NCBI RefSeq assembly: GCF_018141445.1
Contig: NZ_CP058649.1
Coordinates: forward strand, 5,785,001 to 5,849,000
DNA from: Vallitalea pronyensis
GTDB taxonomy: Bacteria; Bacillota; Clostridia; Lachnospirales; Vallitaleaceae
Direction of reading: 5' to 3'
Length of the DNA: 64,000 bases
Positions within the stretch are counted from its first letter, which is position 1. Every line of letters begins with the position of its first letter. Position numbers and translations under genes: made by a program. This document shows, piece by piece, positions 12,797 through 64,000 of the stretch. The notes beneath the pieces were generated by a model, which saw only the letters and a list, made by a program, of their open reading frames with translations, had not been told where the DNA came from and did no database searches.

Positions 12797-12814
12797 TAAG
12801 TCATAATTTAATAG

Positions 12815-12945: not shown

Positions 12946-12974
12946 ATTGGAATCTATCATAAAGACTTACCAAG

Positions 12975-13001: not shown

Positions 13002-13288
13002 GTTGTCTTTTTTTACTCTATTATGTTAACCATAACCTAAAAGCTATGGCTTTAACATATTACCTTGATTCCGTAAGTTGAGTTCTTTCCATTGGGAATA
13101 GTCTTCAACTTATAATAAGTACGACAACCGCACCATTAAGGTTTAACGCTTCTTCATTAGGCAGGGTTTTTAGATTATTTTATATAGAGAATAACGACAA
13201 AGTAACGATCAAAGCGTGATTCTGTTTGATGAGAAGCCGCATCCTGATAGATGGATGAGGGGCGTATTTCCAGGAAAGAAGGGGTAAT
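13002..13288 (+). other. Long leader between riboswitch terminator and SPFH gene
   Basis: A non-coding stretch of about 290 bases. It can form at least two further hairpins: AAGTTGA with TCAACTT (about 13076-13113, with an inner TTCC/GGAA pair) and CATCC with GGATG near 13242-13257. A second regulatory step or an internal promoter is possible, but I cannot identify one. Confidence 0.4.
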
Positions 13289-37849: not shown

Positions 37850-38030
37850 TGTATGAGTCCATTTATGGCAGGTCTCCTGGCTTACAATCACCCTACTCTT
37901 CACCTTCCCATCCTCAGACAGTGGTATACGAATTTCGTCATGCTTACAGTAGCGGGGGCTGCAAAGGTCTTACACCTTTTTCCCTATTCTCTCATGATGA
38001 GCACCATAAAATCTTCCCTATTCATTTTTA
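37850..38030 (-). ncRNA. Cobalamin (B12) riboswitch
   Basis: On the minus strand all conserved blocks of the cobalamin aptamer appear in order: GGTGCTCATCATGAGAGAATAG-GGAA (peripheral start, landmark only), GCAGCCCCCGCTACTGT, CCACTGTC, GATGGGAAGGTG, and the B12 box GCCAGGAGACCTGCC near 37862-37880. Cobalamin binding normally closes expression of B12 synthesis or cobalt transport genes. It is followed by a terminator hairpin and the six-gene importer/cbiK operon. Ends are approximate. Confidence 0.95.
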
Positions 38031-42434: not shown

Positions 42435-43595
42435 TTACCAATCTGCTATCGCTTGATCGTCAGGATTGAAAAACATGGGGTTTTCCCATTCACCATCATA
42501 CGCCATTTCCTGAATCATTTCTTCATTCACCTCAATACCAAGGCCATGACCTTTTGGAACATCCATATAACCTCCAATGACCTCAAAAGGTTTTTTCAAA
42601 TATTTTACGCCTCTATCCCAACCATTATCCATACAAGGGAATTCTTGAATGACAAAATTAGGTGTACATGCATCCACTTGAAGGCAAGCAGCTAAGGAAA
42701 TGGGTCCCAATGGATTATGTGGCGCAATCCCTGCGTAATAGGCTTCTGCCATGGTTGCAATCTTTCTCACTTCTAGTATACCGCCAGCATGACAACAATC
42801 TGGCTGAACAATAGCAACAGCTTGTTTTTCGATGATTTCTCGAAATCCCCATTTGGTGTAAAGTCTTTCACCTGCTGCAATGGGTATGGACGTGGCTTCT
42901 TTTACTTTTACCAAAGCATCTACATTTTCAGGCAGTACAGGTTCCTCAATAAAGACTGGATGATAGGGTTCCAGTGCCTTACAGAAGCGAATGGCCATAG
43001 CAGGTGACATCCTGCCATGACAATCAATGGCAAGGTCCATTTCATCCCCTACAGCTTCTCTTATTTTATGGAATTTGTCTACATATTCATCTAGTCTTTT
43101 TGGACTTTCCAGATAGTCAGTGGGTCGATCCGGTAAACCCAGTTTCAAGAAATTGAATCCTTCTGCTTGTCTTTTCAAGGCACATGCAACGAATTTTTCT
43201 GTGCTGGTATCGCCTGTATTTGGATAGTCACCATCAATATGTGGGTATACACGTATTTTATCTCGAACCTTTCCACCTAACATCTCATAGACAGGCATTT
43301 CATGATACTTGCCTTTGATATCCCATAAAGCCTGTTCAATACCACTTATGGCACTTACCATGATGGGTCCACCGCGATAGAATGAACCCCTATACATCAT
43401 CTGCCATAGACGTTCTATGTCACACGGATTTTTCCCTATTATCATTTTCCCCATGTTGTGAACCGCTGCTTCCACAATTTTGCTTTTACCTTCAATGACA
43501 GGTTCACCAAAACCAACGATACCTTCATCTGTAGAAATTTTCAAAAACAGCCATCTTGGTTTTACATGAAATGTTTCCAGTTTGGTGATTTTCAA
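42435..43595 (-). CDS. dgoD: D-galactonate dehydratase-like enolase-superfamily enzyme
   Basis: A 386-residue dehydratase of the mandelate racemase/muconate lactonising subgroup. It resembles E. coli DgoD closely at the start (MKITKLETFHVKPRWLFLKI, then GEPVIEGKSKIVEAAVH) and in FYRGGPIMVSAISGIEQALW. Metal ligands are Asp in LAIDCHGR near 187, Glu in FIEEPVLPE near 213 and Glu in PIAAGERLY near 240; the His/Asp pair is APHNPLGP near 290. It would dehydrate D-galactonate to 2-keto-3-deoxygalactonate. The start codon is TTG, seven bases after AAAGGATG. Gluconate or another aldonate is an alternative substrate. Confidence 0.9.
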   Translation of the reverse strand: MKITKLETFHVKPRWLFLKISTDEGIVGFGEPVIEGKSKIVEAAVHNMGKMIIGKNPCDIERLWQMMYRGSFYRGGPIMVSAISGIEQALWDIKGKYHEMPVYEMLGGKVRDKIRVYPHIDGDYPNTGDTSTEKFVACALKRQAEGFNFLKLGLPDRPTDYLESPKRLDEYVDKFHKIREAVGDEMDLAIDCHGRMSPAMAIRFCKALEPYHPVFIEEPVLPENVDALVKVKEATSIPIAAGERLYTKWGFREIIEKQAVAIVQPDCCHAGGILEVRKIATMAEAYYAGIAPHNPLGPISLAACLQVDACTPNFVIQEFPCMDNGWDRGVKYLKKPFEVIGGYMDVPKGHGLGIEVNEEMIQEMAYDGEWENPMFFNPDDQAIADW

Positions 43596-48449: not shown

Positions 48450-50033
48450 TCAACTACTTTTTAATTGCTTTCGGTAAACGTTTGGACTCATGTTAAACTT
48501 CTTCTTAAACACGTTACTGAAATAATAAATGTTATCATAACCGATTTCATCACTTATTTGTGTGATGGACTTATCCGTGGTTCGAAGTAAAATCTTAGCC
48601 ATCTCCATTCGGTAATCCGTGAGATAATGGGTCACATTAACCCCTACTTTCTTCTTAAACAGGGAACCGAAATAACTGGCAGACATGTTTAGACGTTCTG
48701 CTAAGAAGGAGACGGTTATATCATGGCTATAATGGTTCTGGATATAATCAAGACATCCTTTAATATCCTTGTCCAATGTATCGTCTCTCATTACCTTGAG
48801 ATGCTTAAAATACAACGTGTTAAACCTTTCAAACCAATCCATTGTCTGGTGCATGTATTCAAAATGTCTTAGTTCTGACCTTTCTGCTATACCATCATAA
48901 CCTGTTATATCCTGAAACTGCTGGTGATATAATTTCAGTTCTTTTGAATACACATGAAGCATTTCATCCAGATCCCCATTGAATGTTTGTCGAACAAAAG
49001 ACATGCTTGCTTCAGACACATCATGAAAATATTGCTTCCAGACATCAGCTGCTTGTTGCGCATCTCCGTATTCTATAGCCCTTTCAAGGTTGCGTTCCAT
49101 TGTTGTGTCAAATAATAATTTATCATGCTCTATGAGACCGTCTTTCTTACTGCTTGCCTCATACAGAATGGATTCAGGTCCATGAATAAATCGTTTCTCA
49201 TTAACCTTATCTAAAGCGTCTAGAGCCTTTTTAAAGTCTTGTAAATCTATGGCTCTAGCGTTCAAGGCTACAGAAACCGTGATTTGCATATAACGACTAA
49301 GGGCTTTCTGCAAGTCTTCTAACATGTTACTAAGCTTATTTTGCAACATCACCTTGGCATTCATGACACCCACATAATGTAAATCATCCAGACGAAACAC
49401 ATCTCCTGTACCATAGTCATTAATGATTTCCGACGTAAGGTTCATGACCGATTGAGCAAAAAGCCGTCGATCCGATGGGGAACTGGCTGGTTTTCTCTTC
49501 GTACATGTATCCACTGTAAACAACATAAGACACCCTTCACTGCTCGTGAGCTTACTTCCCTTTTTCTGAAGCAGGTCCAAATCCAATGGACATTCATCAC
49601 TGGCAATTCTCTGCCATTCTTCCTGAAGACTCATTGTTTTCTCGTCACCTATAGCGGATCGTATGGATTGTTGTACAGTAAGCAGCAGTTCCAGCAGCTT
49701 TTGTGAATTAACAGAAAGCTTTAGTATATAATCAACTGCGCCAAGCCGTAGTGCTTGTTGAGCATAGATAAAATCCTCATGACAACTAAGGATGATGACT
49801 TTCACATCGATAGCCTCATCTTTAATCGCCTTCAATACCTCAATGCCGTTCATAACAGGCATCTCAATGTCAAGGAGTACAATATGGACTTCTTCCTGCC
49901 TTAATATGGCCATCGCTTCTTTTCCATTACTGGCCTCACCAATGACTTCAAAATAATGTTGCCCCCAATCGATTGATGATTTTATACCCACCCTAACCAA
50001 CAATTCATCGTCAACTATCAGCACTTTTGTCAT
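48450..50033 (-). CDS. YesN-type response regulator with AraC domain
   Basis: A 527-residue cytoplasmic regulator. Residues 1-120 are a receiver (TKVLIVDDELLVRVGIK; phosphoacceptor Asp in VLLDIEMPVMNG near 55; Lys in ILKLSVN near 104). A middle region of about 300 residues follows, and the last 100 residues are an AraC helix-turn-helix pair (VSFLAERLNMSASYFGSLFKK and QISDEIGYDNIYYFSNVFKK). It should bind the promoter of the importer operon when phosphorylated by the kinase. The start at 50033 follows GGGAGG and overlaps the kinase gene by 23 bases. Confidence 0.93.
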   Translation of the reverse strand: MTKVLIVDDELLVRVGIKSSIDWGQHYFEVIGEASNGKEAMAILRQEEVHIVLLDIEMPVMNGIEVLKAIKDEAIDVKVIILSCHEDFIYAQQALRLGAVDYILKLSVNSQKLLELLLTVQQSIRSAIGDEKTMSLQEEWQRIASDECPLDLDLLQKKGSKLTSSEGCLMLFTVDTCTKRKPASSPSDRRLFAQSVMNLTSEIINDYGTGDVFRLDDLHYVGVMNAKVMLQNKLSNMLEDLQKALSRYMQITVSVALNARAIDLQDFKKALDALDKVNEKRFIHGPESILYEASSKKDGLIEHDKLLFDTTMERNLERAIEYGDAQQAADVWKQYFHDVSEASMSFVRQTFNGDLDEMLHVYSKELKLYHQQFQDITGYDGIAERSELRHFEYMHQTMDWFERFNTLYFKHLKVMRDDTLDKDIKGCLDYIQNHYSHDITVSFLAERLNMSASYFGSLFKKKVGVNVTHYLTDYRMEMAKILLRTTDKSITQISDEIGYDNIYYFSNVFKKKFNMSPNVYRKQLKSS

Positions 50034-51831
50034 AATCTGCCTCCCTGATGATTGGTAATACAATTGTTATTTTGATACCCTTTCCTATTTGGCTGAAAAG
50101 CTTTAAACCATATGCCTCACCAAACATCAATTTGATGCGTTGATGTACATTCCCCAGACCAATACCACTATACCTGCCTTTTGTTTCATTTTTTTCCATG
50201 GATGCAACCAACTGTTTTAGATGTTCTGGCTCCACGCCCACCCCGTTATCTTCAACCCTAAAACACAAGTTTTCATCCTCTATATACCCTTTGATCTCAA
50301 TATGAATGTTTTTCTCCTCTTGTCCTTTTATACCATGAATCAAAGTATTTTCAACTAAGGGCTGAAGAATGAGTTTGGGAACCATCCATGTTTTAATACC
50401 TTCTTGTAAGGTAATGGACATGGTGAACTGTTGATTGTATCTGGCTTTTTGGATATTAAGATAACTGTTGATATTTTCAATCTCATCACCAATGGGTATG
50501 CATTCGTTCATTTTGCCTATGCTCATTTCCAGCAACCTGCCAAGGGATGCAATCAGGTCTGCCACATTAGGGGCTTGATTGATAACGGCTATCCATTTAA
50601 TGGTATTCAAGGTATTGAATAAAAAATGAGGATTAATCTGTGCATACAGCACTTGCAGCATCAATGCTTTCTCTTTCTCCTTTTCTTGCTGAATATTTCT
50701 AATCAATTGATTGATTTGATGTATGGTTATGTTAAATCGCTTTCCCAACTGAGCGATTTCATCTCTACCCTTAACGGGAACCGTCAGATCAAATTTCCCC
50801 TGCTCAACATCTTGCATCTGGAGCATTAACTTTTTTAATGGAAGGGTAATACTGTAAATCAGAATGTAACTGATAATAATAAATATCAGCAATACACCAA
50901 GAAGGAGAATCAGATTCTTGCTCCTCTGGTCAATGACTTGAGAGAATAGATTTTCATAATTACTGACCTTAATCAGATACCAACCTGTCAAACTATTTTT
51001 TGTGTAACTGATGAATTGATGATTTCCATCTTCTTCATAACTAAAATGATTACGATTCTTATACAAAATAGCATTAACATAGGGTTTTGCAGCCAAGTTT
51101 GTACCAATGTGCTCCCGCTCAACATCACTAACCACCGTACCCCCTTTATCAACAACTAATATGTTGTCATCGTTTTCTCCCGTCAGCAGGTCATAAATCA
51201 AATCCTGCTCTTCATAAGTAATGGTCATGACACCCCGCCAAGACAGTTCAGCACTTTCATTAATCAATCGGGCTAACGTAATGAGGTAGACATGCTTATC
51301 ATGATCCCAGTGAAAAACCCAAGACTGGTAACCTTTATCCTTCATACTATCTGCAAACCATGTTTGTTCGCGCCAAGCTATATCTTTATCGGAATTTCTC
51401 TTAGGAAGCGATGTATATATATTGTTCTGAAAATCAAAAAGGGTGAGGGTATTGTTATACTCCGACAATATGGTTTCTCTAGCGATGTTAAAACTATCAT
51501 TGATCACCAGATAATTCTTATAATAGTGCTGTAGCTTTTCCCATTCATCTGCCTCAATGGACGGGGTTCCATTAAAAAGCACCTCTTTCACCTGCTTATT
51601 AATGGCAAAAAAGTTCATAGCTTTGACCACTTTATCCAATTCGTCTTCAATGACCTTGTTCAACTGTTCTAAATCTCTAGCATTTTCTTTCTTAATCTGT
51701 TCACGAAGAATATCTTCCGTAGTCTTGGAATAACGATAAGAAATGATTAATAGAGGCAATACAAGAAAAATGAGAATAACCAACAGCATTTTGGTTTGAA
51801 CGTGCTTAAACCGATACAGTCTCATTTTCAC
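50011..51831 (-). CDS. YesM-type sensor histidine kinase
   Basis: A 606-residue membrane kinase. Two membrane segments (about residues 15-32 and 303-325) flank an extracellular dCache-like sensor domain. A HAMP segment follows (LKKLMLQMQDVEQGKFDLTV near 335), then the His_kinase domain with the phospho-His in QINPHFLFNTLNTIKW near 420. The ATPase domain has N-box LVENTLIHG near 510 and G-boxes VEDNGVGVEP and GIGLGNVHQRI near 540-575. It senses an external sugar signal, perhaps via the co-encoded binding lipoprotein, and phosphorylates the YesN protein encoded next. Confidence 0.93.
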   Translation of the reverse strand: MKMRLYRFKHVQTKMLLVILIFLVLPLLIISYRYSKTTEDILREQIKKENARDLEQLNKVIEDELDKVVKAMNFFAINKQVKEVLFNGTPSIEADEWEKLQHYYKNYLVINDSFNIARETILSEYNNTLTLFDFQNNIYTSLPKRNSDKDIAWREQTWFADSMKDKGYQSWVFHWDHDKHVYLITLARLINESAELSWRGVMTITYEEQDLIYDLLTGENDDNILVVDKGGTVVSDVEREHIGTNLAAKPYVNAILYKNRNHFSYEEDGNHQFISYTKNSLTGWYLIKVSNYENLFSQVIDQRSKNLILLLGVLLIFIIISYILIYSITLPLKKLMLQMQDVEQGKFDLTVPVKGRDEIAQLGKRFNITIHQINQLIRNIQQEKEKEKALMLQVLYAQINPHFLFNTLNTIKWIAVINQAPNVADLIASLGRLLEMSIGKMNECIPIGDEIENINSYLNIQKARYNQQFTMSITLQEGIKTWMVPKLILQPLVENTLIHGIKGQEEKNIHIEIKGYIEDENLCFRVEDNGVGVEPEHLKQLVASMEKNETKGRYSGIGLGNVHQRIKLMFGEAYGLKLFSQIGKGIKITIVLPIIREADYDKSADS

Positions 51832-52029: not shown

Positions 52030-52068
52030 ATCCCCCTTCTATCTAAAACCAGTAGATAGAAGGGGGAT
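52030..52068 (-). terminator. Hairpin after the beta-propeller enzyme gene
   Basis: A 16-bp perfect stem (ATCCCCCTTCTATCTA with TAGATAGAAGGGGGAT, 7-base loop) 14 bases after the stop codon. The T-tract is short, but the stem is very stable and ends the sulfatase/oxidoreductase operon. Confidence 0.8.
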
Positions 52069-52081: not shown

Positions 52082-54889
52082 TTAATGGTTAGTTGTATTC
52101 GAAAAAGTCACATCTACTATACTAAATACACCTGCTGGTACCGTTACATGAATGGTGTTGTTTTTTATTTTCAAAGTTTCCTGAGTAAGTATATTTTTAG
52201 CTTTCGTACCATTCATGTTTTGAAGCTTGATGGTCGCTTGACGCTCTTCGGGATTAACATAACCTGAATCCAGTATATAGATTCTTAAATGACTATTATC
52301 TATACGTACAACCGTCCATGCTACATCGCCCTCCACCACAACAGGCATGCGCTTTCTAGCTTGATTAAGTTTTTTTACAACTGTCTTTCTGTAGATATCG
52401 GGGTCTTGTTTTGTATCATTTTCGTCATAAAAGTATTTCCCATCTGTGGTAATCTTATCCACAAACCGACTGCCTTCAATGTCATAGTCGTCAGGTAGAA
52501 TAGGAATCATACCGTAATATGTATTGGGCAAAAAGTTACTCATTCTGTGTTTTACACCATAGCCATAGTTTGAAAAATCATGTTTAGCAGTAGGATACCC
52601 TGCCCAATAGCAGTCTAGTTGATCAAAAACGTATTTTTCATCATATGTTGGATCAAAAAGAGCAATATTATGACCATTTTCACCATGTTCAACGTAACCT
52701 TCATCAGGGGATTTCATTGCCAAAGCAACATCTGGAATAGACAATATATCCTCTCTTTCTGGCGTTATCAGTATGCCTTTATCGATCATTTTGTAGATAG
52801 GAATCGTCTGATCATTCTCCGGTAATACGAAATTCTGTAGATATTTAGCGCCTTGGGACATATGGTATACCATGTTTCGCATATAATGACTTTGTGTTTT
52901 TTGTGAACTCCATTCATATTGGCGATTATAGGATGCATTATCCTCAACCATTCGGGTGCCCCAGTTATCAACTGCTCCCGTTAACCAGATACCCATTCGG
53001 CCAGCGAGGCTTAATTCTGCTGTTCTGGTGTTGGTATCTTCTGTTGAAATAATCAATACATCTTTGTATTTTTCATTATAGAGCTGTGCCCAGATTGGGT
53101 TGTAGAACGTTCCTGTCCAAAAAATGTTTTTATTTCGGAAGAATACCTTTGCCGTACCATATTGCTGACAAAGTTCAGCCAGTGGTATTAACCGATTCTT
53201 AATGGCATAATCCATGTTCTCATCACTTTTTGCAAATTCTGAGAAGATAAACATCTTAAAATGGTTTGGGGCAGCCTTTAAAATTTCTTCTGCTGTGGAC
53301 ATGGAGAAATAAAATGGATCCGTTGTATGCCCTGCCCACACGGTAAAATCTTGACCTTCTGCTTCTAACCTCGTTGCTTCTGCAATAATTTGCTCTGCTG
53401 TCATGTCATATTTTTTCCTCTTATCTTTATGGGTAGCCCAATATTCGGACAAAGATGAACGATCATAGTCTTCTGTCCAAAGATAATTTTTAGGAAAATG
53501 TATGGCATCATTGGTCAGTGCGCTTTCTATTTTAGGATCAATATGATTTAAAGAAATAAGATGATCCTTCGAAATAGATTGTTGATAAGAAGGCATGACA
53601 AATGCATCAATTTGTTCATCCAGGGTACGTATATTCCCTTGAATCTCTTTTATCCTTCCCACTTGTTGTATATTTTCAAAAGCTTCTCCCCAATGGTCGT
53701 TATCTAGTTTCAAGGCATAGATTGCATCACCACCAGAAATATCACTTGCCATATAATAGGTATTGGTTTCAGGGTCAAATTCCCCTCCTGCAAAAGAAGC
53801 TGGCGCTGAATAGATAGCTCTAACTTCACCATCTAAATTTCGAACGAGAATATCACTTGCAAAAAACAATAATACATACTCATCGGACATGGAAGGAATA
53901 TTCACATAAGAAAGCTGTGCCATTCTATAATCACGACTTCTTAGCTGATCGTTAAAAGCTGTTGATTCATGATTTTCAATAAAACCACCTTCACTGTTGA
54001 AAACAGCCATTTCCCCTCTCGTCTGTTTAGAACTATAATAGGGTAAGAGTATCTCACATTTACCATCCTTGTTGATATCTTGCACCATACAACGGCCAAT
54101 AAACTTCTTCTTGGCTTTTAAATCCAAATCGTTGAAATCCGTTACCCATACAGGCTTGGACATATCATCTGGGTCCAGCATCATCATCAGGTTGGTGCGG
54201 TTAACAGAATATGTGATAACAGCAATAACATATTCTTTTCCTGTTCCATACATATCACCTGATATCACATGTCGAACCACTCCAGCTTGCTTGTTACTAC
54301 TATCGTCAGGCACATATGCATCAACTTTAGTGCCTGTAGCAGAAAGCTTATAAATATGCTTATCAATACCACCGGTTATGATATATTTCTTACCATCATT
54401 TCCTTGTACCGTGCAAACATTATAAAGAGGTGCAGGGGTTGTATATGACCATAACAAGCGACCCTTATGATTTAAAACATACAATGTACCATCACTAGAA
54501 GCAATCATACTTTCATCTTTGCCATCACCATCAATATCATCAACAAAGAGATCGTATGGAAAAGATTCCCCTGCTTGACTTGACCATAAGCGTTTTCCGT
54601 CAGCACTATATCCAAGTACTTTACCATCATATGCTGCTCCTACAACACCTCTAATACCATTCTTAAGGGTTGCGGGTTTAACATGATATATATGACTTCC
54701 TGTTGAAAATCCCGTTAATACTTCACTATGTTGAGTTGTTGCCTCCTTTTGGGTTTGAGCAAATACGCCCTCTTCAACAGGGTCTATCCTATCAGCCCCA
54801 TCTACGGGCATACCACTAAACATAAAACTAGCTAACATAACCAGTGATAAAAAGACAACTAACCTATATTTTTTATTACAACGCATCAT
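52082..54889 (-). CDS. Secreted beta-propeller enzyme, candidate lambda-carrageenase
   Basis: A 935-residue secreted protein. Residues 1-32 are a signal peptide (cleavage near VDGAD). Residues 65-410 form a PQQ/FG-GAP-like beta-propeller, with calcium-loop motifs DIDGDGKDE (119-127) and DINKDGKCE (271-279). Residues 490-800 look like an alpha/beta glycosidase-type region (acidic candidates in FIFSEFAKS near 551 and IISTEDTNT near 617). Residues 845-930 are a beta-rich tail. An N-terminal propeller joined to an unrelated catalytic part at about 940 residues is the design reported for lambda-carrageenase (GH150). Sulfatase and galactonate genes beside it agree. The family is inferred from layout only. 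AGGAGG lies seven bases before the ATG. Confidence 0.55.
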   Translation of the reverse strand: MMRCNKKYRLVVFLSLVMLASFMFSGMPVDGADRIDPVEEGVFAQTQKEATTQHSEVLTGFSTGSHIYHVKPATLKNGIRGVVGAAYDGKVLGYSADGKRLWSSQAGESFPYDLFVDDIDGDGKDESMIASSDGTLYVLNHKGRLLWSYTTPAPLYNVCTVQGNDGKKYIITGGIDKHIYKLSATGTKVDAYVPDDSSNKQAGVVRHVISGDMYGTGKEYVIAVITYSVNRTNLMMMLDPDDMSKPVWVTDFNDLDLKAKKKFIGRCMVQDINKDGKCEILLPYYSSKQTRGEMAVFNSEGGFIENHESTAFNDQLRSRDYRMAQLSYVNIPSMSDEYVLLFFASDILVRNLDGEVRAIYSAPASFAGGEFDPETNTYYMASDISGGDAIYALKLDNDHWGEAFENIQQVGRIKEIQGNIRTLDEQIDAFVMPSYQQSISKDHLISLNHIDPKIESALTNDAIHFPKNYLWTEDYDRSSLSEYWATHKDKRKKYDMTAEQIIAEATRLEAEGQDFTVWAGHTTDPFYFSMSTAEEILKAAPNHFKMFIFSEFAKSDENMDYAIKNRLIPLAELCQQYGTAKVFFRNKNIFWTGTFYNPIWAQLYNEKYKDVLIISTEDTNTRTAELSLAGRMGIWLTGAVDNWGTRMVEDNASYNRQYEWSSQKTQSHYMRNMVYHMSQGAKYLQNFVLPENDQTIPIYKMIDKGILITPEREDILSIPDVALAMKSPDEGYVEHGENGHNIALFDPTYDEKYVFDQLDCYWAGYPTAKHDFSNYGYGVKHRMSNFLPNTYYGMIPILPDDYDIEGSRFVDKITTDGKYFYDENDTKQDPDIYRKTVVKKLNQARKRMPVVVEGDVAWTVVRIDNSHLRIYILDSGYVNPEERQATIKLQNMNGTKAKNILTQETLKIKNNTIHVTVPAGVFSIVDVTFSNTTNH

Positions 54890-54989: not shown

Positions 54990-57200
54990 CTAAAACACCT
55001 TCACACCAAATACTTCAATATAACGTGCGCCATAAGTATTCTCAAAAGTAAACCGTATGGTTGTCACATTGTCATAGGTTTCCATAAATCTGTTCAATCC
55101 TTGGTAATTATTTCTTATGACTTTACATATTGAGTTATCATGTGTAATGATGTCTATCTTATAGTCCTTTACAAGTTGTCTAATAGGTGAACTAAAGTTG
55201 TTGGTCTCCATCTGTGGATTAAAGATAATCTGAATTTCTTCAATATTTTTCGGTGAAGGAAAGGTGATTTCTAGCCATGGATGTTCTTCCTCTTCTGAAA
55301 CCCATACATGGGGTAATCCATAGGGTCTAGAAAAACCATTTGCAACATTTTCTGCTGCATATAGGTGCTGCGACGGTGTTATGTTTCTAAAACCAATACA
55401 TCGAGATACTTCGTCATTTAAGGGAAGCTTCTCAATGAATCTTTTAATTTTATGCTCACTCCTTTCATCAAAAATCAATGTAGGCGCTCCAGTGATACGT
55501 TCTTTTGATACATAAACGTTAAGTGCTTCATGTTTCATCAATATAATATAATGTTTCATATCTTTTGAACGACTACATTGAAGGGGTAATGTCAACCATC
55601 CATCAAAATTGCCATCTACGGAGACATGGATTTCCTTTACCTTATAATCGGGAAAGTAATTCTCAACATGTTCACCACCAAATACAGCAACATGAAGCAG
55701 TTGCTCTCGTTCTGTCTTGTTCTTTAATTTTATGTCAACACTTTCCAACGTTTCTGTCGTTGTTGGCAGCACAAGACAGAAGTTTTTATCTAAAGTCACA
55801 TAATCAGTAACCTTGGTGTTCTCCATTAATCTTACTGATGAAGATGTTATGTGAGCATCTTTAACATAGCCTACGTCTTCCTTCATGCCAAGAATATACT
55901 GTCCATCTCGTTGTAACACCTGTTGTAACTCTTTCATATATGGCTTATCACGTATGTTTCTTGGCATGACTTGATGTTTGATGGATAGGGCAGCTGCTGT
56001 TCCAACAGCTTGGGCCATGGCTGACAATGTCTGTTGAACTCTTATTGAACCCAATGCAACATGGGTAGCGCTGGTAATACGTCCTGCTAAAAATAAATTA
56101 TGGATATTCTTAGAATACATCATACGGTATGGTACTTGGTATAACCCTGGAACGAATCCAAACTGAGACGGTCTGCCATGACCATATATCCCCCCCACAT
56201 CATGAATATCAAGGGACCAACCTGCTACGGATACAGCATCTTCAAATACAACTTTATTCTCAATATCCTTTTGATTGAGCACATAATCCCCATAGAATCT
56301 TCTAGATTCCCGTTTACCAGGCATGGATGCTACCCATTTCAAATACAGATTATCCACATCATCAAATTGGCCACTGTTCTTTACATAGTCCCAATAGCCA
56401 TAGACTAGTTTTCTAAGCTCTAATGTGATGGCATTGTCATCTTGAATGGTATCCAGCTCACCACCATAGGACAGCCACCAGATACCATCAATTTCATCGA
56501 TGTTTTCTCTAACTTTTCTACCTGTTTCTGGTCGAATAAACCATTTTAATATGTCATCATTATGATAGTCATAGGCAAAGGCTGGTTTTACATAGGGTAT
56601 TTTCTTATTCTCTCGACCTACTTTGAAGAGAATACAACTTCCCATCACCTTATGGTCAGCTTCATCTACTGCAAGGCTTTCATCATAGGCATCTTTGGAT
56701 TCTCTCCCCACTGTATATAGGGCACCAGCTGCATGAGCAATCGTTCCATCACCTGAAGCGTCCACAAATAAAGGGCTTTTGAAAAGGTATTCTTTTTCTG
56801 TTCTTAGTTGCCTGCCATAGACAGCCATTATATTTCCATTATCCATGCTGACATCATAGGCTTCTGTGTTTGAAAACAATGTGATATGAGGTTCTCGTCT
56901 AACCATCTCCAATAATGCCATATCTGTTAATTCATAATCATCTTTTGTGTTATACCTTGGATTATACTTAAAGATTTCCAGCTTAATCTCATCCGATATG
57001 CCTGCTTCTCTGGCATAATAAGATATTGAATGAGATGAACCATTATAATGGACACGAAGCTCACTGCTATGATTCCCGCCTAAAACTGGACGATTATTTA
57101 CCAATGTAACTTTTAAGCCTTTTCTTGCTGCTGCAATGGCCGCTGTCATACCAGCCATGCCACCGCCAATGACTGTTAATTCACTTGTTATGATTTCCAT
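54990..57200 (-). CDS. FAD-dependent oxidoreductase with beta-sandwich tail
   Basis: A 736-residue cytoplasmic flavoprotein of the FAD_oxidored (PF12831-type) group. The dinucleotide motif VIGGGMAGMTAAIAAARKG opens the protein (residues 11-29), the NRPVLGGNHSSELRVH segment lies near 35-50, DASGDGTIAHAAGA near 147-160 and GRITSATHVALGSIRVQQTL near 373. The last 200 residues form a separate beta domain (ITFPSPKNIEEIQIIFNPQM), reminiscent of a discoidin-like sugar-binding fold. Such genes sit in many polysaccharide loci, but their reaction is mostly unknown. It begins one base after the sulfatase stop codon, so the pair is tightly coupled. Confidence 0.88.
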   Translation of the reverse strand: MEIITSELTVIGGGMAGMTAAIAAARKGLKVTLVNNRPVLGGNHSSELRVHYNGSSHSISYYAREAGISDEIKLEIFKYNPRYNTKDDYELTDMALLEMVRREPHITLFSNTEAYDVSMDNGNIMAVYGRQLRTEKEYLFKSPLFVDASGDGTIAHAAGALYTVGRESKDAYDESLAVDEADHKVMGSCILFKVGRENKKIPYVKPAFAYDYHNDDILKWFIRPETGRKVRENIDEIDGIWWLSYGGELDTIQDDNAITLELRKLVYGYWDYVKNSGQFDDVDNLYLKWVASMPGKRESRRFYGDYVLNQKDIENKVVFEDAVSVAGWSLDIHDVGGIYGHGRPSQFGFVPGLYQVPYRMMYSKNIHNLFLAGRITSATHVALGSIRVQQTLSAMAQAVGTAAALSIKHQVMPRNIRDKPYMKELQQVLQRDGQYILGMKEDVGYVKDAHITSSSVRLMENTKVTDYVTLDKNFCLVLPTTTETLESVDIKLKNKTEREQLLHVAVFGGEHVENYFPDYKVKEIHVSVDGNFDGWLTLPLQCSRSKDMKHYIILMKHEALNVYVSKERITGAPTLIFDERSEHKIKRFIEKLPLNDEVSRCIGFRNITPSQHLYAAENVANGFSRPYGLPHVWVSEEEEHPWLEITFPSPKNIEEIQIIFNPQMETNNFSSPIRQLVKDYKIDIITHDNSICKVIRNNYQGLNRFMETYDNVTTIRFTFENTYGARYIEVFGVKVF

Positions 57201-57201
57201 A

Positions 57202-58653
57202 TTATGTCTCCTTTACATAACCACCCATTCTTACCCAATCGCCAGTAAGATGATGAGCCCACGAATGTTTGGCATCCTTGGCATATGCATAGGATTCAAA
57301 CACATCACCATTCCCTAAAATCCTAGGATCTCTTGTTTCTATGAGTTTTTCTTTAAGTTCCAAGTACAATGCCTTTTTTAAGACGTCATAATCTTTATTT
57401 TGAGCCAGATTCTCCATACATTCTGGATCTTTTTTTATAGCATATAGCTCTTCTTGAGGGCGTAAGCCAAAAGTATAGTTATAATAGCAGTTGTCCCCTT
57501 TTGCATGCAGGTGTAATATTTCCTCTTTGGTAGGACAATTAGCACAGTTGGTATAATACGTTTCAGGATTGCCGGACGGGTATCGTGATGGTTCAAAATT
57601 ATGAATATATAAATAGTCAGGTGTCCGGATGCACCTTACAGGATATCCTTTATCTTCTGCTCTTCCCATATCGTGCCTTTCTCTTCCCATATAGGCTCTA
57701 TTTCTCTGTGGATTAACAAATCCGTCTCTCTCTGAAAGCAACACATCTAGAAGACTCTTTCCTGGCATTTCTTTTGGTATATCTAAACCTGCAATGTCCA
57801 AAAATGTAGGTGCAAAATCAATAAAACTGACTAAATCGTCTATTACCCGATTGCCTTTAAAGGCTGGACAACTGATGATTAAAGGTAGGTTTAAGTCTTG
57901 TTCATACATTTGACCTTTAATTCTTGGAAATGGTGCGCCATTGTCCGATGTCACAACGATGACCGTATTGTCCATTTCACCGATTTCCTCTAGTTTGTTG
58001 ATGATACCGCCTAATTGCTTGTCAAACCAGTCAATTTCAAAAGCATAATCGCACAGGTCACTTCGAACTTTATCGTTGTCAGGAAAATAAGCTGGAACGG
58101 TTACATCTTCTAACTTTTTACCGTGATAGACGCCTTCACCCTCTATGTATTTACGATGTGGTTCTTTGCAACCGTACCAAAAACAGAACGGTTGACCGTC
58201 TTCCCTAGCTTCCAAAAACATATCAAAATTACGGACATAATCAATGGTGCTGATGAGCGAATGTTCAGGAGGTGTCAATGTCATTTTGTTATACGCGTTA
58301 CCAGCAGGATTACGTATTAATCCGCTTCTTTCCCAATTGCCTGGTCCCCAGCCTTTTCCTGTATAACCAATATGATAACCGGCCTCTTCCAATAAATCAG
58401 GATATAAATGAAAATCATTGGGAAAATAACAGAAATGTGTACATGCCTCTTTTAACTGCCATGTGTGCATACCCGTTAATATACTTGCTCTTGAAGGCGC
58501 ACATTTGGGATTCGTTGTAAAAGCGTTGTTAAATAGAACCCCTGTTTTTGCTAGTTGGTCCACATGAGGTGTATGGACAAATTTATGGCCATAAGCACCC
58601 ATATGGGATGCATCATCTGCAATAGCAAATAGAATATTTAATTTGTCTTTCAT
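57202..58653 (-). CDS. Sulfatase of family S1
   Basis: A 483-residue type I sulfatase, which removes sulfate esters from sugars. The active-site motif CAPSRASILTG begins at Cys51, to be converted to formylglycine. The calcium ligands are Asp13 and Asp14 (IADDASHMGAYG) and Asp237-Asn238 (VTSDNGAP), and Lys100 is in YTGKGW. No signal peptide is present, so desulfation probably happens inside the cell after import. It resembles the N-sulfoglucosamine/arylsulfatase side of S1, but the sugar position attacked cannot be read from sequence. No formylglycine-generating enzyme gene lies in the window. The FAD oxidoreductase gene follows directly. Confidence 0.93.
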   Translation of the reverse strand: MKDKLNILFAIADDASHMGAYGHKFVHTPHVDQLAKTGVLFNNAFTTNPKCAPSRASILTGMHTWQLKEACTHFCYFPNDFHLYPDLLEEAGYHIGYTGKGWGPGNWERSGLIRNPAGNAYNKMTLTPPEHSLISTIDYVRNFDMFLEAREDGQPFCFWYGCKEPHRKYIEGEGVYHGKKLEDVTVPAYFPDNDKVRSDLCDYAFEIDWFDKQLGGIINKLEEIGEMDNTVIVVTSDNGAPFPRIKGQMYEQDLNLPLIISCPAFKGNRVIDDLVSFIDFAPTFLDIAGLDIPKEMPGKSLLDVLLSERDGFVNPQRNRAYMGRERHDMGRAEDKGYPVRCIRTPDYLYIHNFEPSRYPSGNPETYYTNCANCPTKEEILHLHAKGDNCYYNYTFGLRPQEELYAIKKDPECMENLAQNKDYDVLKKALYLELKEKLIETRDPRILGNGDVFESYAYAKDAKHSWAHHLTGDWVRMGGYVKET

Positions 58654-58712: not shown

Positions 58713-59585
58713 TTAACCTTTTATAGCTCCAATCATCACACCTTTAACAAAGAATTTTTGTATAAATGGATAGATGCAAAATACAGGTATAATGGAAACC
58801 ATGATTGTGGCGTACTTAATGATTTGACCAATATCTGCTGACACATCAATATCAATACCCATGTTGGCTTCGTCCAGTCGGCTTTGTAAAACAATTTCTC
58901 TTAGAAAGAGCTGTAATGGGAAAAAGTCACGGTCACGTAAGTAAATTAACGCTTGAAACCATTGATTCCAATGTGCAACGCCATAATATAAAGCCATAAC
59001 GGCAATGGTTGGTTTAACCAAAGGTAAAATAATTTTTGTCAATACATGCACTTCACTGGCACCATCAATCTTAGCAGATTCCATTAAACTGGATGGAATG
59101 GCTGCAAAAGAAGTGCGCATAATGATGAGATTGGTTGTGGTAATGGCTGTTGGCAGCAGTAATGTGAGTCTTGACGTACCTAACAGGCTGCTGACAACCC
59201 AATAGGTAGGAATAAGTCCCCCCGAAAATTGCATGGTAAAGATAACAATCAAGGTTAGAATCTTACCTAAGTACAAGTCCTTCTGGGCAAGCACATAAGC
59301 CCCTAAGGATGTCATGAAAAGATTAATGGATGTTCCTACAATCACATAAAACAGGGTATTGAGGTAACCTGTTGTTACCGCAGGTGTTTTCATAACCAGC
59401 CGATAAGCTTCAATGGTAAAGCCAAGAGGTTTCAATAGTACCCCTCGATGGGCTTGAAATAATGCTGGGTCACTAATTGATGCAAAGAGGACATAGAGAA
59501 CAGGATATAGGGTAGTGACACACAACATGGTTAACATGACATAATTCACCACATCAAATATACTTATTTTTTTTCTGTTTACCAT
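58713..59585 (-). CDS. LplC/YtcP-like ABC permease
   Basis: A 290-residue inner-membrane permease of the large-substrate CUT1 subgroup (LplC-like). It has six hydrophobic segments, the opening FDVVNYVMLTMLCVTTLYPVLYV, the EAA motif IPSSLMESAKIDGASEVHVL near 185-204 and the closing IQKFFVKGVMIGAIKG. Relatives carry uronide or sulfated oligosaccharides and pair with an MsmX-type ATPase encoded elsewhere. It is 12 bases downstream of its partner. Confidence 0.94.
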   Translation of the reverse strand: MVNRKKISIFDVVNYVMLTMLCVTTLYPVLYVLFASISDPALFQAHRGVLLKPLGFTIEAYRLVMKTPAVTTGYLNTLFYVIVGTSINLFMTSLGAYVLAQKDLYLGKILTLIVIFTMQFSGGLIPTYWVVSSLLGTSRLTLLLPTAITTTNLIIMRTSFAAIPSSLMESAKIDGASEVHVLTKIILPLVKPTIAVMALYYGVAHWNQWFQALIYLRDRDFFPLQLFLREIVLQSRLDEANMGIDIDVSADIGQIIKYATIMVSIIPVFCIYPFIQKFFVKGVMIGAIKG

Positions 59586-59597: not shown

Positions 59598-60560
59598 CTA
59601 CCATAAGCTGGTCTCGCTTAATTTTTTACTCACTTTATTAGCCATGATTAATAGACTAAAATTAATGATGGCATTAAATAGCCCAACTGCTGTTGAATAG
59701 CTAAAGTCGGCTTCTTCTAAACCTCTTCTATACACAAAAGTTGATATGACATCTGCTGTATCATAGATAATAGGGTTGTAGAGAAGAATTATTTTTTCCC
59801 ATCCAAGGTGCATCATTCTACCAATTCGCATAATGAGTAAAATGGTGATTGTTGGTGCGATGCCAGGTAATGTCACATGCCATATTTTTTTGAAACGACC
59901 GGCTCCATCAATATCAGCAGCTTCATATAAGTTAGGATTGATACCTGATAACGCTGCCAAGTAAATAATGGTTCCCCATCCAATGTTCTGCCAAATATTA
60001 CTGCCTACAAATATAGGTCGAAATAAGGCAGATACAGCTAGTAGATTCTTCCTCTGAAAGCCTATAAAGGCTAATAAATCATTGATAAGTCCATCGGTTC
60101 CAACTAAGTCAACGATAATCCCTGCCACCACTACAGCCGATATAAAATGGGGCATGTAAGTCACTGTTTGAACGGTTCTCTTAAATTTTCTGCTTCTGAC
60201 TTCATTTAGCAGTAATGCTAAGATAATAGGCGCTGGAAAACCAATCAATAAATTATAAAAATTAATGAACAGTGTATTTTTTACCAACCGCCAAAAGTAC
60301 TGGCTGGTCAAAAAATCTATAAAATGCTTCATACCTACCCAATCGCTGCCCCAAATCCCTCTACCTGGTCGATAATCTTTGAATGCAATGACGATACCAA
60401 ACATTGGACCATAGTGAAAAATAAGATAGTATAACAATACGGGAATGACCATGATATAGATTGTTCGATGTTTCTTAAAATCTTCTGCAATTTTTGCGCG
60501 TATAGTCGTTTTCTTATGCTTCGTTTTTTCAAGCTTAACGGTCTTCGATAGCTCTGCCAT
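59598..60560 (-). CDS. LplB/YteP-like ABC permease
   Basis: A 320-residue permease of the LplB group. A charged cytoplasmic N-terminus (residues 1-33) precedes six membrane segments. Signatures are YIMVIPVLLYYLIFHYGPMFG near 35, FKDYRPGRGIWGSDWVGMKHF and the EAA motif INPNLYEAADIDGAGRFKKI near 210, then WHVTLPGIAPT. It forms the channel with the LplC-like permease; the binding protein gene is 30 bases upstream. Confidence 0.94.
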   Translation of the reverse strand: MAELSKTVKLEKTKHKKTTIRAKIAEDFKKHRTIYIMVIPVLLYYLIFHYGPMFGIVIAFKDYRPGRGIWGSDWVGMKHFIDFLTSQYFWRLVKNTLFINFYNLLIGFPAPIILALLLNEVRSRKFKRTVQTVTYMPHFISAVVVAGIIVDLVGTDGLINDLLAFIGFQRKNLLAVSALFRPIFVGSNIWQNIGWGTIIYLAALSGINPNLYEAADIDGAGRFKKIWHVTLPGIAPTITILLIMRIGRMMHLGWEKIILLYNPIIYDTADVISTFVYRRGLEEADFSYSTAVGLFNAIINFSLLIMANKVSKKLSETSLW

Positions 60561-60589: not shown

Positions 60590-62215
60590 CTATCGCTTAT
60601 TGTATCGATTGAGTGCAGACTGTTGGTATCCAATCACTTCAACAATACCTAATTTTTTGATATTGGCAACGAATTTATCATAATTCTCTATAGGTTCTAT
60701 TCCCATGATAAATTTTGTCACCATTTCTTCCACATAAGTATCTACTTCACTCATTATATTGGCCGTCTTTTCGCCTTCTTCTAAGGTTGGCGTCATACTT
60801 GTTGGTAAGGCATATGCGAAATCTGCTTTCATCCATTGTTCCCAGCCATCTTGTTGGGTAGGTAAACTATACATGTACTGTTGGTCACCCCAGTCCCAAT
60901 AGGTATTTAAATCTCGAAATAAGAGTTGGCGGTTAGCATCAGGCCGGGAAACACCGTCAGGGTTATTGTTAATGTAATCTGTAAACGCTCTTGAACCATC
61001 TTCTTTATAATTGAATGTAATACCTTCCTGTCCCCAGTAAATAAGCTCTCTGCCTTGCTCACTGTATAAAAAGTCCACATACTTAATAATGGTTAAAGGG
61101 TCATTTGCACTTGACGTTATGAATGTTCCCTCATCTTTAACATTGGGTACGTAATGTCTAAGATGTACCCTATCCCCTTCATTTAATACGGGGTAAGGTA
61201 AAGCTTTTAATATCAGTTCTTTATTATCCACTTCTGCTACCTTGACCAAGGAATTAAAGTAACTCAAATGACCAATGGTTGTTGCTAATTCACCACTTAC
61301 CAACATGGGTTTAATATGCTTATTCAAATCTCTTGATACATAATCTGGATCAATTAAACCTTTGCTGTACCAATCCCGCATTAACATGATATAATCTTTG
61401 TAACCTTCTTCTATAGGACCATATTTCACAACGCCGTCAACTTGAAAGAAGGTGGAGCCAGATGGTACACCGTAAGCACCTGAAAAAGCATCCCATAAGC
61501 CTTCTAATCCATTTTTTGCACTCCATGATAAAGGAATTTTGACACCATTTTCTTTAAATGCTGTTAGCAGTTCTTCCCAATCTGCAATGGTTACAGGTGC
61601 ATCAAGACCCGTCTCCTTTAAGTATTTCTCATTAACCATAGGTCCAAAAAAGCTCAACCCCCGCATTTCAGGGTCTGGTATGATTGCACCAAATGAGATA
61701 AGATTGCCGTCATCGGTGTAGCTGTCTTTTCTTACGGATTCATCTGCATTTATAATAGCCATGTAGTTGGGTGCATTGGCTTTAATCAATTCTGTCATGT
61801 TCTTGAGAATAATACCATCATCTACAGCAGCGTCAACACCGCCTCTATAATGTTTTTGAAGACTTATATGGATTGCATCTGGCAATTTAGCTGAACTGAG
61901 TACTAGATTCAATTGTTGTTCTTCCTGGCCAATGGGAGGGTTTATAAATTTGGGCCGAACGCCTGTTGCTTCAGCTAAGATGTCATAATAAGGATGGTCA
62001 TTATGACTATCCATGACTTTAGCTGTTCTTGCGTTGATGGACCGCCAAAACTTAAATGTTGTATTGCCATCTCCAATTCTACCATCTGGTTGAACGTTCG
62101 ACGATGGCGTACCTTGAAGTGAGCCAGACTCACTTACCTTCTTGCCTTGACAAGCAACCAAGGATAAACCAAGCACCATTACCAGAAATAAAACAATTGT
62201 TCGTTTCATGTTCAT
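60590..62215 (-). CDS. LplA-like oligosaccharide-binding lipoprotein
   Basis: A 541-residue extracellular lipoprotein, the size usual for LplA-type binding proteins that take large oligosaccharides. The signal peptide ends in LSLVAC. Marks are TTFKFWRSINARTAKVMDSH near 45, SFFGPMVNEKYLKETGLDAP near 185 and GWEQWMKADFAYALPTSMTP near 465. The start at 62215 has AGGAGG nine bases upstream. It is the first gene of the LplABC-sulfatase-oxidoreductase-propeller operon and should deliver the fragments cut by the secreted enzyme. Confidence 0.93.
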   Translation of the reverse strand: MNMKRTIVLFLVMVLGLSLVACQGKKVSESGSLQGTPSSNVQPDGRIGDGNTTFKFWRSINARTAKVMDSHNDHPYYDILAEATGVRPKFINPPIGQEEQQLNLVLSSAKLPDAIHISLQKHYRGGVDAAVDDGIILKNMTELIKANAPNYMAIINADESVRKDSYTDDGNLISFGAIIPDPEMRGLSFFGPMVNEKYLKETGLDAPVTIADWEELLTAFKENGVKIPLSWSAKNGLEGLWDAFSGAYGVPSGSTFFQVDGVVKYGPIEEGYKDYIMLMRDWYSKGLIDPDYVSRDLNKHIKPMLVSGELATTIGHLSYFNSLVKVAEVDNKELILKALPYPVLNEGDRVHLRHYVPNVKDEGTFITSSANDPLTIIKYVDFLYSEQGRELIYWGQEGITFNYKEDGSRAFTDYINNNPDGVSRPDANRQLLFRDLNTYWDWGDQQYMYSLPTQQDGWEQWMKADFAYALPTSMTPTLEEGEKTANIMSEVDTYVEEMVTKFIMGIEPIENYDKFVANIKKLGIVEVIGYQQSALNRYNKR

Positions 62216-62360
62216 ACTGTAATACCTCCTAAGTTTCATTAAGTTAATTTTAGATGAATGTTTCCATGGCTATAATGTACCAAGTTTCACCTTAATCGTA
62301 AATCAGCTATTTTAAACCATTCTTCTATGATTTTTTAACGACAGACTGCCTTAAATACGC

Positions 62361-62390
62361 AAAAAAACTGCAAATCTACTGAATTTGCAG
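62361..62390 (-). terminator. Terminator of the membrane AraC sensor gene
   Basis: Minus-strand stem CTGCAAAT with ATTTGCAG and a 7-base loop, followed by seven Ts, just after the stop codon. The LplABC operon therefore starts from its own promoter. Confidence 0.85.
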
Positions 62391-62411
62391 CATCGTATCA
62401 TTTTGCTTTTG

Positions 62412-64000
62412 CTAATATTGACTATTTTTTCTATACTTCCCAGGTGTTATACCTTCATATCTTTTAAATACTCTTATAAAAACATCGCTATTGAGGTAAC
62501 CGTACTTAACTGCTATCTCTTTAATGGTTTCATTGGACTGATTGAGTGCAGTCTTGGCTTTTCCTAATCGAACCAGATGAATGGCATCAGATAGATTCGT
62601 ACCTGTTAACTTTTTATATTTTCTTGATAGCTCATAGATATCCATATGAAAATGGTTCGCTAATTGTGACACCGATAGTTCCTGATCCATGTAATGTTTT
62701 TGAATGTATACGTCTATTTCTGACATAATATGTTTCACTTGTCCTGAATGGTTTTTCTTAACATCCACTTCAATTAATGTTAATAAGTCAATAATAGCCT
62801 CACGTAACGCTTCAATGGTCTGGAAGTTTGTCAGTTTCTCATAAACTTCTTCAAATGAAATCATTTCAGAATTCATACCATCTTTATCAATGCTATTCAT
62901 TAGAATATTAATAATACCAAACATCCTACATTTGACAATGTTAATTTTAGGATTCTGGTTTTTCAAGACTAAGTTAAATAGATTATTAATGATATTTTTA
63001 GCTTTACCGTACTCCCCATTTTCTAACATGCGAACAAAATTGGCTTCATGTTGGTAGTATTTGATTTCATGGCTCCTTTTATGTTCTTGGTCACCATCAT
63101 AATGAATAATACCCTTTTTCCCAAATACGATGTTTTGCTCCAGTGCGTGGAGTGCTTCTTCATAAGCTTTATGAATATTCTCTATATCCACCTTGCGTTT
63201 ACTGACTGCAATATGGATGTCTAAGTCTACTATGTCTTTGCTAAATGTTTCAAGCCACCTTCGAAAACCGTTGTTTCTGTAGACATCTTCTGAGTAATTA
63301 ACAAGTGCCACAATCATACCATTAAAATAAATCGGATAGATTTCTGAATTACCCCTATGGTCCCTAAAGGTATCCATAAAATCATTTTTTAACTGCTCCA
63401 TAAAAGCTAAAAACATATCATGAGCATTGCCAGTGACATTGTCATCAGTATGCATGTAGAACATCACAACATTTGAATAGGTGCCTGGAAGCTTCACGCC
63501 ATAAAAATCCATTAACCTCATGTATTCTTCTTTATCCCTAAACGCCTGAGTGATGAGCCGAATTAGGAAGTACTTCTGCATATAATCTTTATTTTGCAAC
63601 ACATTCTTTTCCAATCTTTCTTGTTTCTCTTTGGTTTCTATAGCATAGGACTTCAGCGATTCAAAAGCATTATCCATACTTCCAAATGGCGTTGATGAGT
63701 CTTCTCTTAGTAACTCAATTGTGGATAATAATGGGTCATATCTTTTCTTCTTAATAAGAACAATGGCAACGATACTCATGATGATAATAACCAGTAAACT
63801 TAATAGTGCTATCACATGTCCTCCTATGATCGGTTTTTTGAAGGTTGATGCAGGAATAACAATAAAATAGCGCCAATTAATTTCATCGGAACTCACCGTA
63901 TAGGTATAGTAATCTTCCTGATTATTTTCATGGATACGTCCTTCCCCATCTTCTTGAATATGAGATAGCACATCATGAGTAAAATCCATGGCACCATATG
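62412..64000 (-). CDS. Membrane AraC-type sensor-regulator (5' end missing)
   Basis: At least 529 residues are present. The frame stays open to the right edge, with Tyr-Gly-Ala codons before the first visible Met, so the real start lies outside. The order is the end of an extracellular dCache-like domain, a membrane segment (GHVIALLSLLVIIIMSIVAIVL, about residue 60 of the visible part), a long cytoplasmic linker region and a C-terminal AraC pair (VSQLANHFHMDIYELSRKYK and ETIKEIAVKYGYLNSDVFIRVFK). One-piece regulators of this kind sense sugars outside and control the neighbouring transporter operon, here probably LplABC-sulfatase. A terminator follows. Confidence 0.9.
   Translation of the reverse strand, partial: YGAMDFTHDVLSHIQEDGEGRIHENNQEDYYTYTVSSDEINWRYFIVIPASTFKKPIIGGHVIALLSLLVIIIMSIVAIVLIKKKRYDPLLSTIELLREDSSTPFGSMDNAFESLKSYAIETKEKQERLEKNVLQNKDYMQKYFLIRLITQAFRDKEEYMRLMDFYGVKLPGTYSNVVMFYMHTDDNVTGNAHDMFLAFMEQLKNDFMDTFRDHRGNSEIYPIYFNGMIVALVNYSEDVYRNNGFRRWLETFSKDIVDLDIHIAVSKRKVDIENIHKAYEEALHALEQNIVFGKKGIIHYDGDQEHKRSHEIKYYQHEANFVRMLENGEYGKAKNIINNLFNLVLKNQNPKINIVKCRMFGIINILMNSIDKDGMNSEMISFEEVYEKLTNFQTIEALREAIIDLLTLIEVDVKKNHSGQVKHIMSEIDVYIQKHYMDQELSVSQLANHFHMDIYELSRKYKKLTGTNLSDAIHLVRLGKAKTALNQSNETIKEIAVKYGYLNSDVFIRVFKRYEGITPGKYRKNSQY

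Follow-up and report, generated by a model that had tools for sequence, protein, structure and literature searches.

A putative GH150 lambda-carrageenase encoded with a sugar importer and a sulfatase in the chromosome of the Gram-positive bacterium Vallitalea pronyensis

Characterised counterparts of the system considered here come from Pseudoalteromonas. Enzymes of family GH150 act on lambda-carrageenan, a strongly sulfated sugar of red seaweeds, and on nothing else, and two such enzymes from P. distincta U2A have been assayed; their crystallisation failed, and the presumed catalytic site is a conserved patch only (PMC12549532). The carrageenan loci of P. carrageenovora, which has CglA, the lambda-carrageenase that founded the family, have also been described (PMC6262041). 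A gene of this family is present in a 64,000-nucleotide stretch of the genome of Vallitalea pronyensis (contig NZ_CP058649.1, positions 5,785,001 to 5,849,000), referred to hereafter as the window. Judging from its sequence, the product of this gene is most probably a GH150 lambda-carrageenase that is secreted and acts in endo mode; the host, a Gram-positive bacterium, would be marine and anaerobic. Family membership, gene order and the presence of partner families were computed directly. The features of the gene, in window positions, are as follows.

52082..54889, minus strand: GH150-family (lambda-carrageenase) gene, 935 amino acids, ATG start (open reading frame and three Pfam domains)
54797..54889, minus strand: predicted signal peptide region, about residues 1-31, cleavage point approximate (hydrophobic stretch at residues 10-24)
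53717..54646, minus strand: beta-propeller domain, residues 82-391 (PF25292, E 1.4e-46, 159.9 bits)
52487..53470, minus strand: catalytic (middle) domain, residues 474-801 (PF25290, E 1.3e-94, 317.9 bits)
52109..52336, minus strand: C-terminal beta domain, residues 852-927 (PF25291, E 1.2e-27, 96.2 bits)
53237..53239, minus strand: codon of Glu551 (CglA Glu533), candidate general acid (14/14 alignment rows; after predicted strand 544-550)
52030..52068, minus strand: terminator-like hairpin, 13 bases past the GH150 stop codon (16-pair stem; -27.1 kcal/mol, z -5.6)

The three lambda-carrageenase profiles are matched in the order of GH150 (propeller, middle, C-terminal), all far above the Pfam cut-offs of about 27 bits; a search of NCBIfam gave no match at E <=0.1. 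By sequence, the protein is a GH150 member rather than a member of a sister family, because its middle domain scores higher (319.7 bits in the PF25290 comparison run) than that of the second GH150 protein of P. carrageenovora (189.8 bits). An earlier note, written from the letters of this DNA, had guessed the family correctly. It had described a secreted 935-residue protein with a signal peptide, with which the length of the reading frame and the hydrophobic N-terminus agree, and a propeller with two calcium-loop motifs, borne out by the PF25292 match in the first half and by exactly two D-x-[DN]-x-D-G loops (residues 118-123 and 271-276). The second half, called unrelated in that note, is indeed separate from the propeller, but really consists of two domains, as the PF25290 and PF25291 matches show. 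A ribosome-binding site, AAGGAGGAG, lies at 54903-54895, ahead of the ATG, and the highest 15-residue mean hydropathy of the N-terminus is 2.68, at residue 10; the protein would be exported from the cell. The propeller was modelled, its structural matches are propellers, and on its own it resembles many beta-propellers. A protein of another enzyme class (a lyase or a GH16/GH82-type carrageenase) sharing the propeller only is scarcely credible. Nothing was found in its favour, the lambda-carrageenase profiles give strong matches to both domains of the second half, and the eight Pfam families matched at E <=1 include neither GH16 nor GH82; this alternative is refuted unless the Pfam family is mixed.

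The genome contains four GH150 middle domains: that of the window gene, one in an 896-residue protein (locus L012, positions 10622-13312) and two in a 1877-residue fusion (L010:8441-14074, at about 1750440-1756073), which has a hydrophobic N-terminus and two complete propeller/middle/C-terminal sets. The window middle domain is 61% identical to that of the single paralog and 53-55% identical to those of the fusion halves. Genes for an ABC (ATP-binding cassette) permease, a GH127, a sulfatase and a GH3 are found near the fusion gene. Upstream of this double gene lies L015:11872-14916, whose 1014-residue product carries propeller repeats of the sortilin/BNR type and matches CBM_4_9 weakly.

At 18 of 19 chosen conserved positions, the residue is identical in all 14 rows of a GH150 alignment, CglA included, the exception being E649. 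The invariant residues include D489, R491, W518, H521, D524, E551, R585, K587, W591, E617, R646, D650 and R671, and both halves of the fusion have the chosen residues, E649 included, as in the window protein. With four domain sets in one genome, some copies could have lost their function, and the window protein could be a former GH150 enzyme that is still secreted but now only binds or senses carbohydrate; this is highly improbable, since none of the four copies has lost any of the candidate catalytic residues E551, E617, D650, D524 and H521. Two AlphaFold models built from three-row alignments had mean pLDDT (predicted local distance difference test) values of 50.6 and 51.7, with only part of the barrel and the C-terminal domain modelled well. 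In these low-confidence models, residues 465-615 form beta/alpha units, with E551 just past strand 544-550 and E617 past strand 612-616; in one of the models, a beta/alpha pattern was noted over residues 498-636. Searches of the PDB yielded no chain matching a GH150 catalytic domain.

A docking study of a truncated Maribacter enzyme located eight of its arginines in the groove (PMC11202985). Five of the eight (355, 448, 509, 512 and 519) map onto CglA R473, R566, R627, R630 and R637 at an offset of 118, a presumed mapping that uses this constant offset (another offset gave four of eight in CglA); the remaining three have no arginine at the mapped place. The same five positions correspond to R491, R585, R646, E649 and R656 of the window protein, so that four mappable arginines are kept and the fifth is a glutamate. 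The place of CglA Arg630 is occupied by Glu in all ten Bacillota rows and by Asp in the second P. carrageenovora GH150, where CglA, the Flammeovirga protein and the protein of record MT835799 have Arg. Because of near-copies (L016/L009 and L017/L006), the ten Bacillota rows represent eight distinct sequences. The 14-row tree puts the Bacillota rows in a single clade (97/97) and CglA, together with Flammeovirga and the phage-labelled scaffold MT835799, in another (100/100); the second P. carrageenovora GH150 is a long branch of unsure place. The tree was rooted at its midpoint and therefore does not show the direction of transfer. Locus L007, a near-copy of L009 with unknown residues, was included in alignment A1 and left out of alignment A2 and of the tree.

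The separate clade and the acidic residue raise an alternative: the true substrate of this GH150 enzyme could be a galactan with less or different sulfation, such as lambda-type stretches poor in sulfate or a different galactan of red algae, and not fully sulfated lambda-carrageenan. GH150B of strain U2A, which seems to correspond to the Asp-bearing enzyme, has been assayed and releases incompletely sulfated oligosaccharides (PMC12549532). This alternative nevertheless seems unlikely, given the exclusive activity of GH150 on lambda-carrageenan reported in the same paper, the four other mappable docking arginines kept in the window protein, and an operon sulfatase (see below) nearest to S1_8A, a galactose-2-sulfate enzyme. 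The equation of GH150B with the second P. carrageenovora protein is based on gene order.

A further lead, by sequence and as a lead only, concerns homology of the GH150 barrel to family GH98. Window residues 570-646 match Sp4GH98 (E 1.5e-4, 24.9 bits; phmmer, 203-residue query), the next match outside GH98 having an E of 0.077, and the whole protein matches Sp4GH98 at E 4e-4. Over the same stretch, Sp4GH98 matches RgGH98 with 24.7 bits (76-residue query; the comparison is approximate, as query lengths differ). Membership of GH98 was rejected, the PF08306 (Glyco_hydro_98M) score (E 0.0016, 18.2 bits) being below the cut-off of 23; GH98, the family of Sp4GH98 and RgGH98, consists of endo-beta-1,4-galactosidases and xylanases, with substrates different from those of GH150. 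Among the rows of the VIA list that cover just the half barrel, GH98 structures rank high, but chains 9h6h_A (Z 8.4, 151 aligned, root-mean-square deviation 3.8) and 2wmg_A (Z 7.8, 146 aligned, deviation 3.5) are tied with an unrelated barrel, 3can (Z 7.5), rows differing by less than 1 Z counting as tied, and this Z range is classed as ambiguous. The GH98 stretch beats all 300 shuffles in nine of the 14 GH150 rows and fails to do so in tandemN, tandemC, L008, P. carrageenovora GH150B and MT835799. Aligned pairs fall in the window's register in 12 of the 14 rows (the window included, and MT835799 with only 12 pairs), with none in tandemC or GH150B. Since all of these proteins are related to that of the window, the rows are not independent, and the stretch itself had been picked for its match to the window protein.

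Other searches brought no GH98. The 12-row catalytic profile A5, which omits L016 and L017 because they nearly duplicate L009 and L006, had no match in the PDB at E <=10; two other GH150 catalytic domains found no GH98; and with 13 full-length members, the window protein included, no GH98 family appeared in the best 25 of 29 families at E <=10. Foldseek gave no match at E <=0.001, and GH98 came at rank 14, behind other glycosidases. PF08306 was found neither in the 398 genomes of the phylum sample, the window genome included, nor in a search of the window genome alone, with controls silent in both cases, so that absence is not shown. A search of plasmids with the stretch gave nothing, and no paper was found pairing GH150, or lambda-carrageenase, with GH98.

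The acid and base of Sp4GH98 are presumably Glu158 and Asp251, and it is on this basis that Asp650 is a candidate base. The acid of RgGH98 is Glu411 (PMC8730463); lying 18 residues before the matched stretch, it would fall about two residues from window E551 (an ungapped count, assuming that residue 1 of chain 7q1w is residue 50). A speculative proposal, which we consider possible and somewhat improbable as a whole, is that GH150 is related to GH98 without this having been recognised, both barrels descending from one endo-beta-1,4-galactosidase fold, with Glu551 as the acid and Asp650 (CglA Asp631) as a candidate base in GH150, and that the Bacillota enzymes, with Glu for a sulfate-binding arginine (Arg630), cut a less or differently sulfated lambda-type galactan. 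If this were true, the three GH150 proteins of the genome, one of them a double-headed fusion, would serve different sulfation states. The residues kept across this distant new branch, together with the GH98 lead, narrow the search for the catalytic site to a few mutable residues, and a short list of residues for mutation is the most useful outcome of the analysis.

The neighbouring genes include a lipoprotein, two ABC permeases, a sulfatase and a flavin adenine dinucleotide (FAD)-dependent oxidoreductase, which lie upstream of the GH150 gene, in that order on the minus strand, with gaps of 1-100 bases.

62412..63989, minus strand: AraC-type regulator (PF12833, PF00165)
62367..62391, minus strand: terminator-like hairpin upstream of the transporter genes, on the lipoprotein side (hairpin scan)
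60590..62239, minus strand: lipoprotein, presumed binding protein of the ABC importer (hydrophobic N-terminus ending LVAC; adjoins the permeases)
59598..60560, minus strand: ABC sugar permease (PF00528)
58713..59585, minus strand: ABC sugar permease (PF00528)
57202..58653, minus strand: sulfatase, S1_8A-like, 483 amino acids (PF00884, E 3.2e-38)
54990..57200, minus strand: FAD-dependent oxidoreductase, 736 amino acids (PF12831, E 5.6e-83)
50011..51831, minus strand: histidine kinase with Cache and HAMP domains (PF06580, PF02743, PF00672)
48450..50063, minus strand: response regulator with an AraC-type DNA-binding domain (PF00072, PF12833)
42435..43595, minus strand: D-galactonate dehydratase (NCBIfam NF010624, 500 bits, cut-off 311)
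41739..42395, minus strand: aldolase of the KDPG (2-keto-3-deoxy-6-phosphogluconate) type, presumed to use 2-dehydro-3-deoxy-phosphogalactonate (PF01081; TIGR01182, 167 bits, cut-off 156)

The run from the lipoprotein to the GH150 gene would form one operon, with GH150 last, ended by the strong terminator. A promoter scan did no better than shuffles (47 found, 46.1 expected), and the lipoprotein had no binding-protein match in Pfam. The FAD-dependent oxidoreductase, for which no signal peptide was seen on inspection of the N-terminus, has a weak F5/8-type C (galactose-binding) domain at its C-terminus (PF22633, E 0.0054, under the cut-off). Past the GH150 terminator come the two-component genes (histidine kinase, response regulator), another set of ABC genes, the D-galactonate dehydratase and the aldolase, which scores 153 bits with the phosphogalactonate aldolase model NF006600, under its cut-off of 207. 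The earlier note had placed sulfatase and galactonate genes beside GH150: the sulfatase gene stands two places ahead of it, in the same orientation, and the galactonate genes are some 8.5 kb away, past the terminator and the two-component system. Elsewhere in the window, a cobalamin riboswitch (37850-38023, minus strand) and a cyclic di-AMP riboswitch (12809-12940, plus strand) both score far over their gathering thresholds.

In the window sulfatase, the CAPSR motif for maturation is at residue 51. Inspection of its N-terminus revealed no signal peptide, and it therefore probably works in the cytoplasm. Its closest PDB relative is S1_8A of P. distincta U2A (9bb9; E 4e-41, 144.7 bits, versus 125.1 bits for the best chain outside S1_8), a galactose-2-sulfate sulfatase acting last in the lambda-carrageenan cascade of that bacterium (PMC12549532). 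In a comparison with P. carrageenovora sulfatases, limited to nine matching frames out of 40 sulfatase-profile matches in the window genome, it is the top match to RS20350 and RS20500 and second, by 2 bits, to RS20330; these three are presumably the S1_8 enzymes reported from P. carrageenovora, two in polysaccharide utilization locus (PUL) 8 and one in PUL 9 (PMC6262041). In the same comparison, L011:1783-3519 and L015:10170-11558 are the best matches, at only about 25% identity, to two P. carrageenovora sulfatases taken to be S1_15 galactose-6-sulfatases. Some of the 40 matches are long frames that may be other members of the superfamily. The genome also has a sulfatase-maturing enzyme, over its cut-off, and a single GH110 (L013:6933-8588), whose best PDB relatives are the U2A GH110 enzymes (7jw4, E 3e-85). 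A GH2 at L011:9462-11870 is 37% identical to the PUL 8 GH2 of P. carrageenovora, and more GH2s are found in L010 and L012.

These genes suggest a scheme in which secretion, substrate, product, cell location, pathway order and the marine anaerobic way of life are inferred. Using conserved arginines, the exported enzyme would hold sulfated galactan in a cleft that the propeller forms with the catalytic barrel, and would hydrolyse beta-1,4-galactosidic bonds, giving neo-lambda-carrageenan oligosaccharides with an even number of sugar units. Uptake of these oligosaccharides would fall to the lipoprotein and the two permeases of the operon, and the S1_8-type sulfatase, activated by the anaerobic sulfatase-maturing enzyme, would strip 2-sulfates inside the cell. 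The GH110 and GH2 enzymes encoded elsewhere would then release galactose, part of which could pass through D-galactonate. Several points weigh against this lambda-carrageenase reading. The AlphaFold models reach only low confidence over the catalytic part and so do not confirm its fold; Glu at the Arg630 place in all ten Bacillota rows means that these enzymes may prefer another pattern of sulfation; enzymes that were assayed, or are linked to an assay, are just 28-32% identical; and no assay of the Bacillota GH150 branch was found in the literature examined. In addition, the GH110 and the examined GH2 genes lie at 1.74-1.96 Mb of the 6.25-Mb contig and the operon, far from them, at 5.84 Mb.

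Among the genomes sampled, PF25290 was found in one of six genomes of the genus, four of 392 of the order and one of 398 of the phylum, the window genome being counted each time. The other three genomes of the order belong to one genus, of the Epulopiscium kind. Their copies fit the clostridium-like host proposed in the earlier note, L009 and L006 being near-identical to the named Epulonipiscium and Epulopiscium loci L016 and L017, and L007 resembling L009 by eye. Relatives elsewhere comprise two loci in genome contigs, two plasmid records and one phage record; two scans of viral contigs confirmed no GH150 relative. The phage record, MT835799.1 (17883-20714), comes from human faeces, is labelled 'Bacteriophage sp.' and marked unverified, and has GH150 amid frames that on inspection resemble sulfatases and GH2; the DNA seems to be bacterial and to have been entered under a phage label. 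In Ca. Epulonipiscium viviparus, GH110-like, sulfatase-like and GH150 genes share one stretch (L016:1521-3134, 5508-7133 and 8323-11820), which may be a locus for lambda-carrageenan in this giant bacterium of fish guts. Right after the full GH150 gene of L017, a shorter GH150-like frame (11710-12690) has a propeller start and a C-terminal-domain end only, a deletion or an assembly fault. The window genome has three porphyranase-type (PF18206) matches, at 4812935, 4293683 and 5261381, with none in the five congeners searched, and the species may thus have gained several red-algal polysaccharide genes, of porphyranase type and GH150.

A Gram-positive lambda-carrageenase is not new as such. The earlier note knew of these enzymes from Gram-negative bacteria only, a view overtaken by the purification of one from a Bacillus (Cga-L50, cited by PMC11202985). 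Kappa-, iota- and lambda-carrageenases have been reported, collectively for the two classes, from Bacteroidia and Clostridia metagenome-assembled genomes (MAGs) of fish guts, with GH150 in some of the gene clusters (PMC11333855), and GH150 is present in Epulonipiscium too. GH150 has also been reported in Alistipes (PMC11748540) and in a Bacteroides MAG (PMC13168452), and a search that used query genes of the kappa/iota type detected carrageenan loci in Firmicutes, Epulopiscium among them (PMC5698469). GH86 genes are known in V. pronyensis, and algal carbohydrate-active enzymes in Vallitalea (PMC11077953); the available parts of the literature on Vallitalea with carrageenase or carrageenan name no Vallitalea GH150.

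Compared with the P. distincta U2A pathway, the window operon has a counterpart of the S1_8 galactose-2-sulfatase (57202-58653), by similarity only; counterparts of the GH110 alpha-1,3-galactosidase and of the GH2 beta-galactosidase are present, the former elsewhere in the genome and the latter matched at family level only. The second P. carrageenovora GH150 (PUL 8, L018:14905-17601; 32.5% middle-domain identity) shares with the window protein the three domains and an acidic residue at the Glu649 place, and adjoins two GH110, one GH2 and two S1_8 genes (PMC6262041). The GH150s of Epulonipiscium viviparus and Epulopiscium sp. AS2M-Bin001 (L016 and L017; 39-45% middle-domain identity) belong to the same order and clade as the window protein, but are longer (1165 and 1043 residues), in a neighbourhood unlike the window operon. 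The Flammeovirga middle domain is 33.7% identical. CglA, presumed to be WP_104644226.1 (L021:42345-45170) because position, length and the match to GH150 agree, has the same three domains, a similar length (942 versus 935 residues) and the same invariant residues, with 27.5% identity over the whole protein and 31.6% in the middle domain; it belongs to a different clade and has Arg630 where the window protein has Glu649. Whereas CglA is encoded on a Gram-negative plasmid near TonB-type uptake genes, the window gene is chromosomal, in a Gram-positive host, and is accompanied by genes for an ABC importer and for a sulfatase lacking a visible signal peptide, a putative lambda-carrageenan gene set that differs from the periplasmic scheme of Pseudoalteromonas (PMC12549532).

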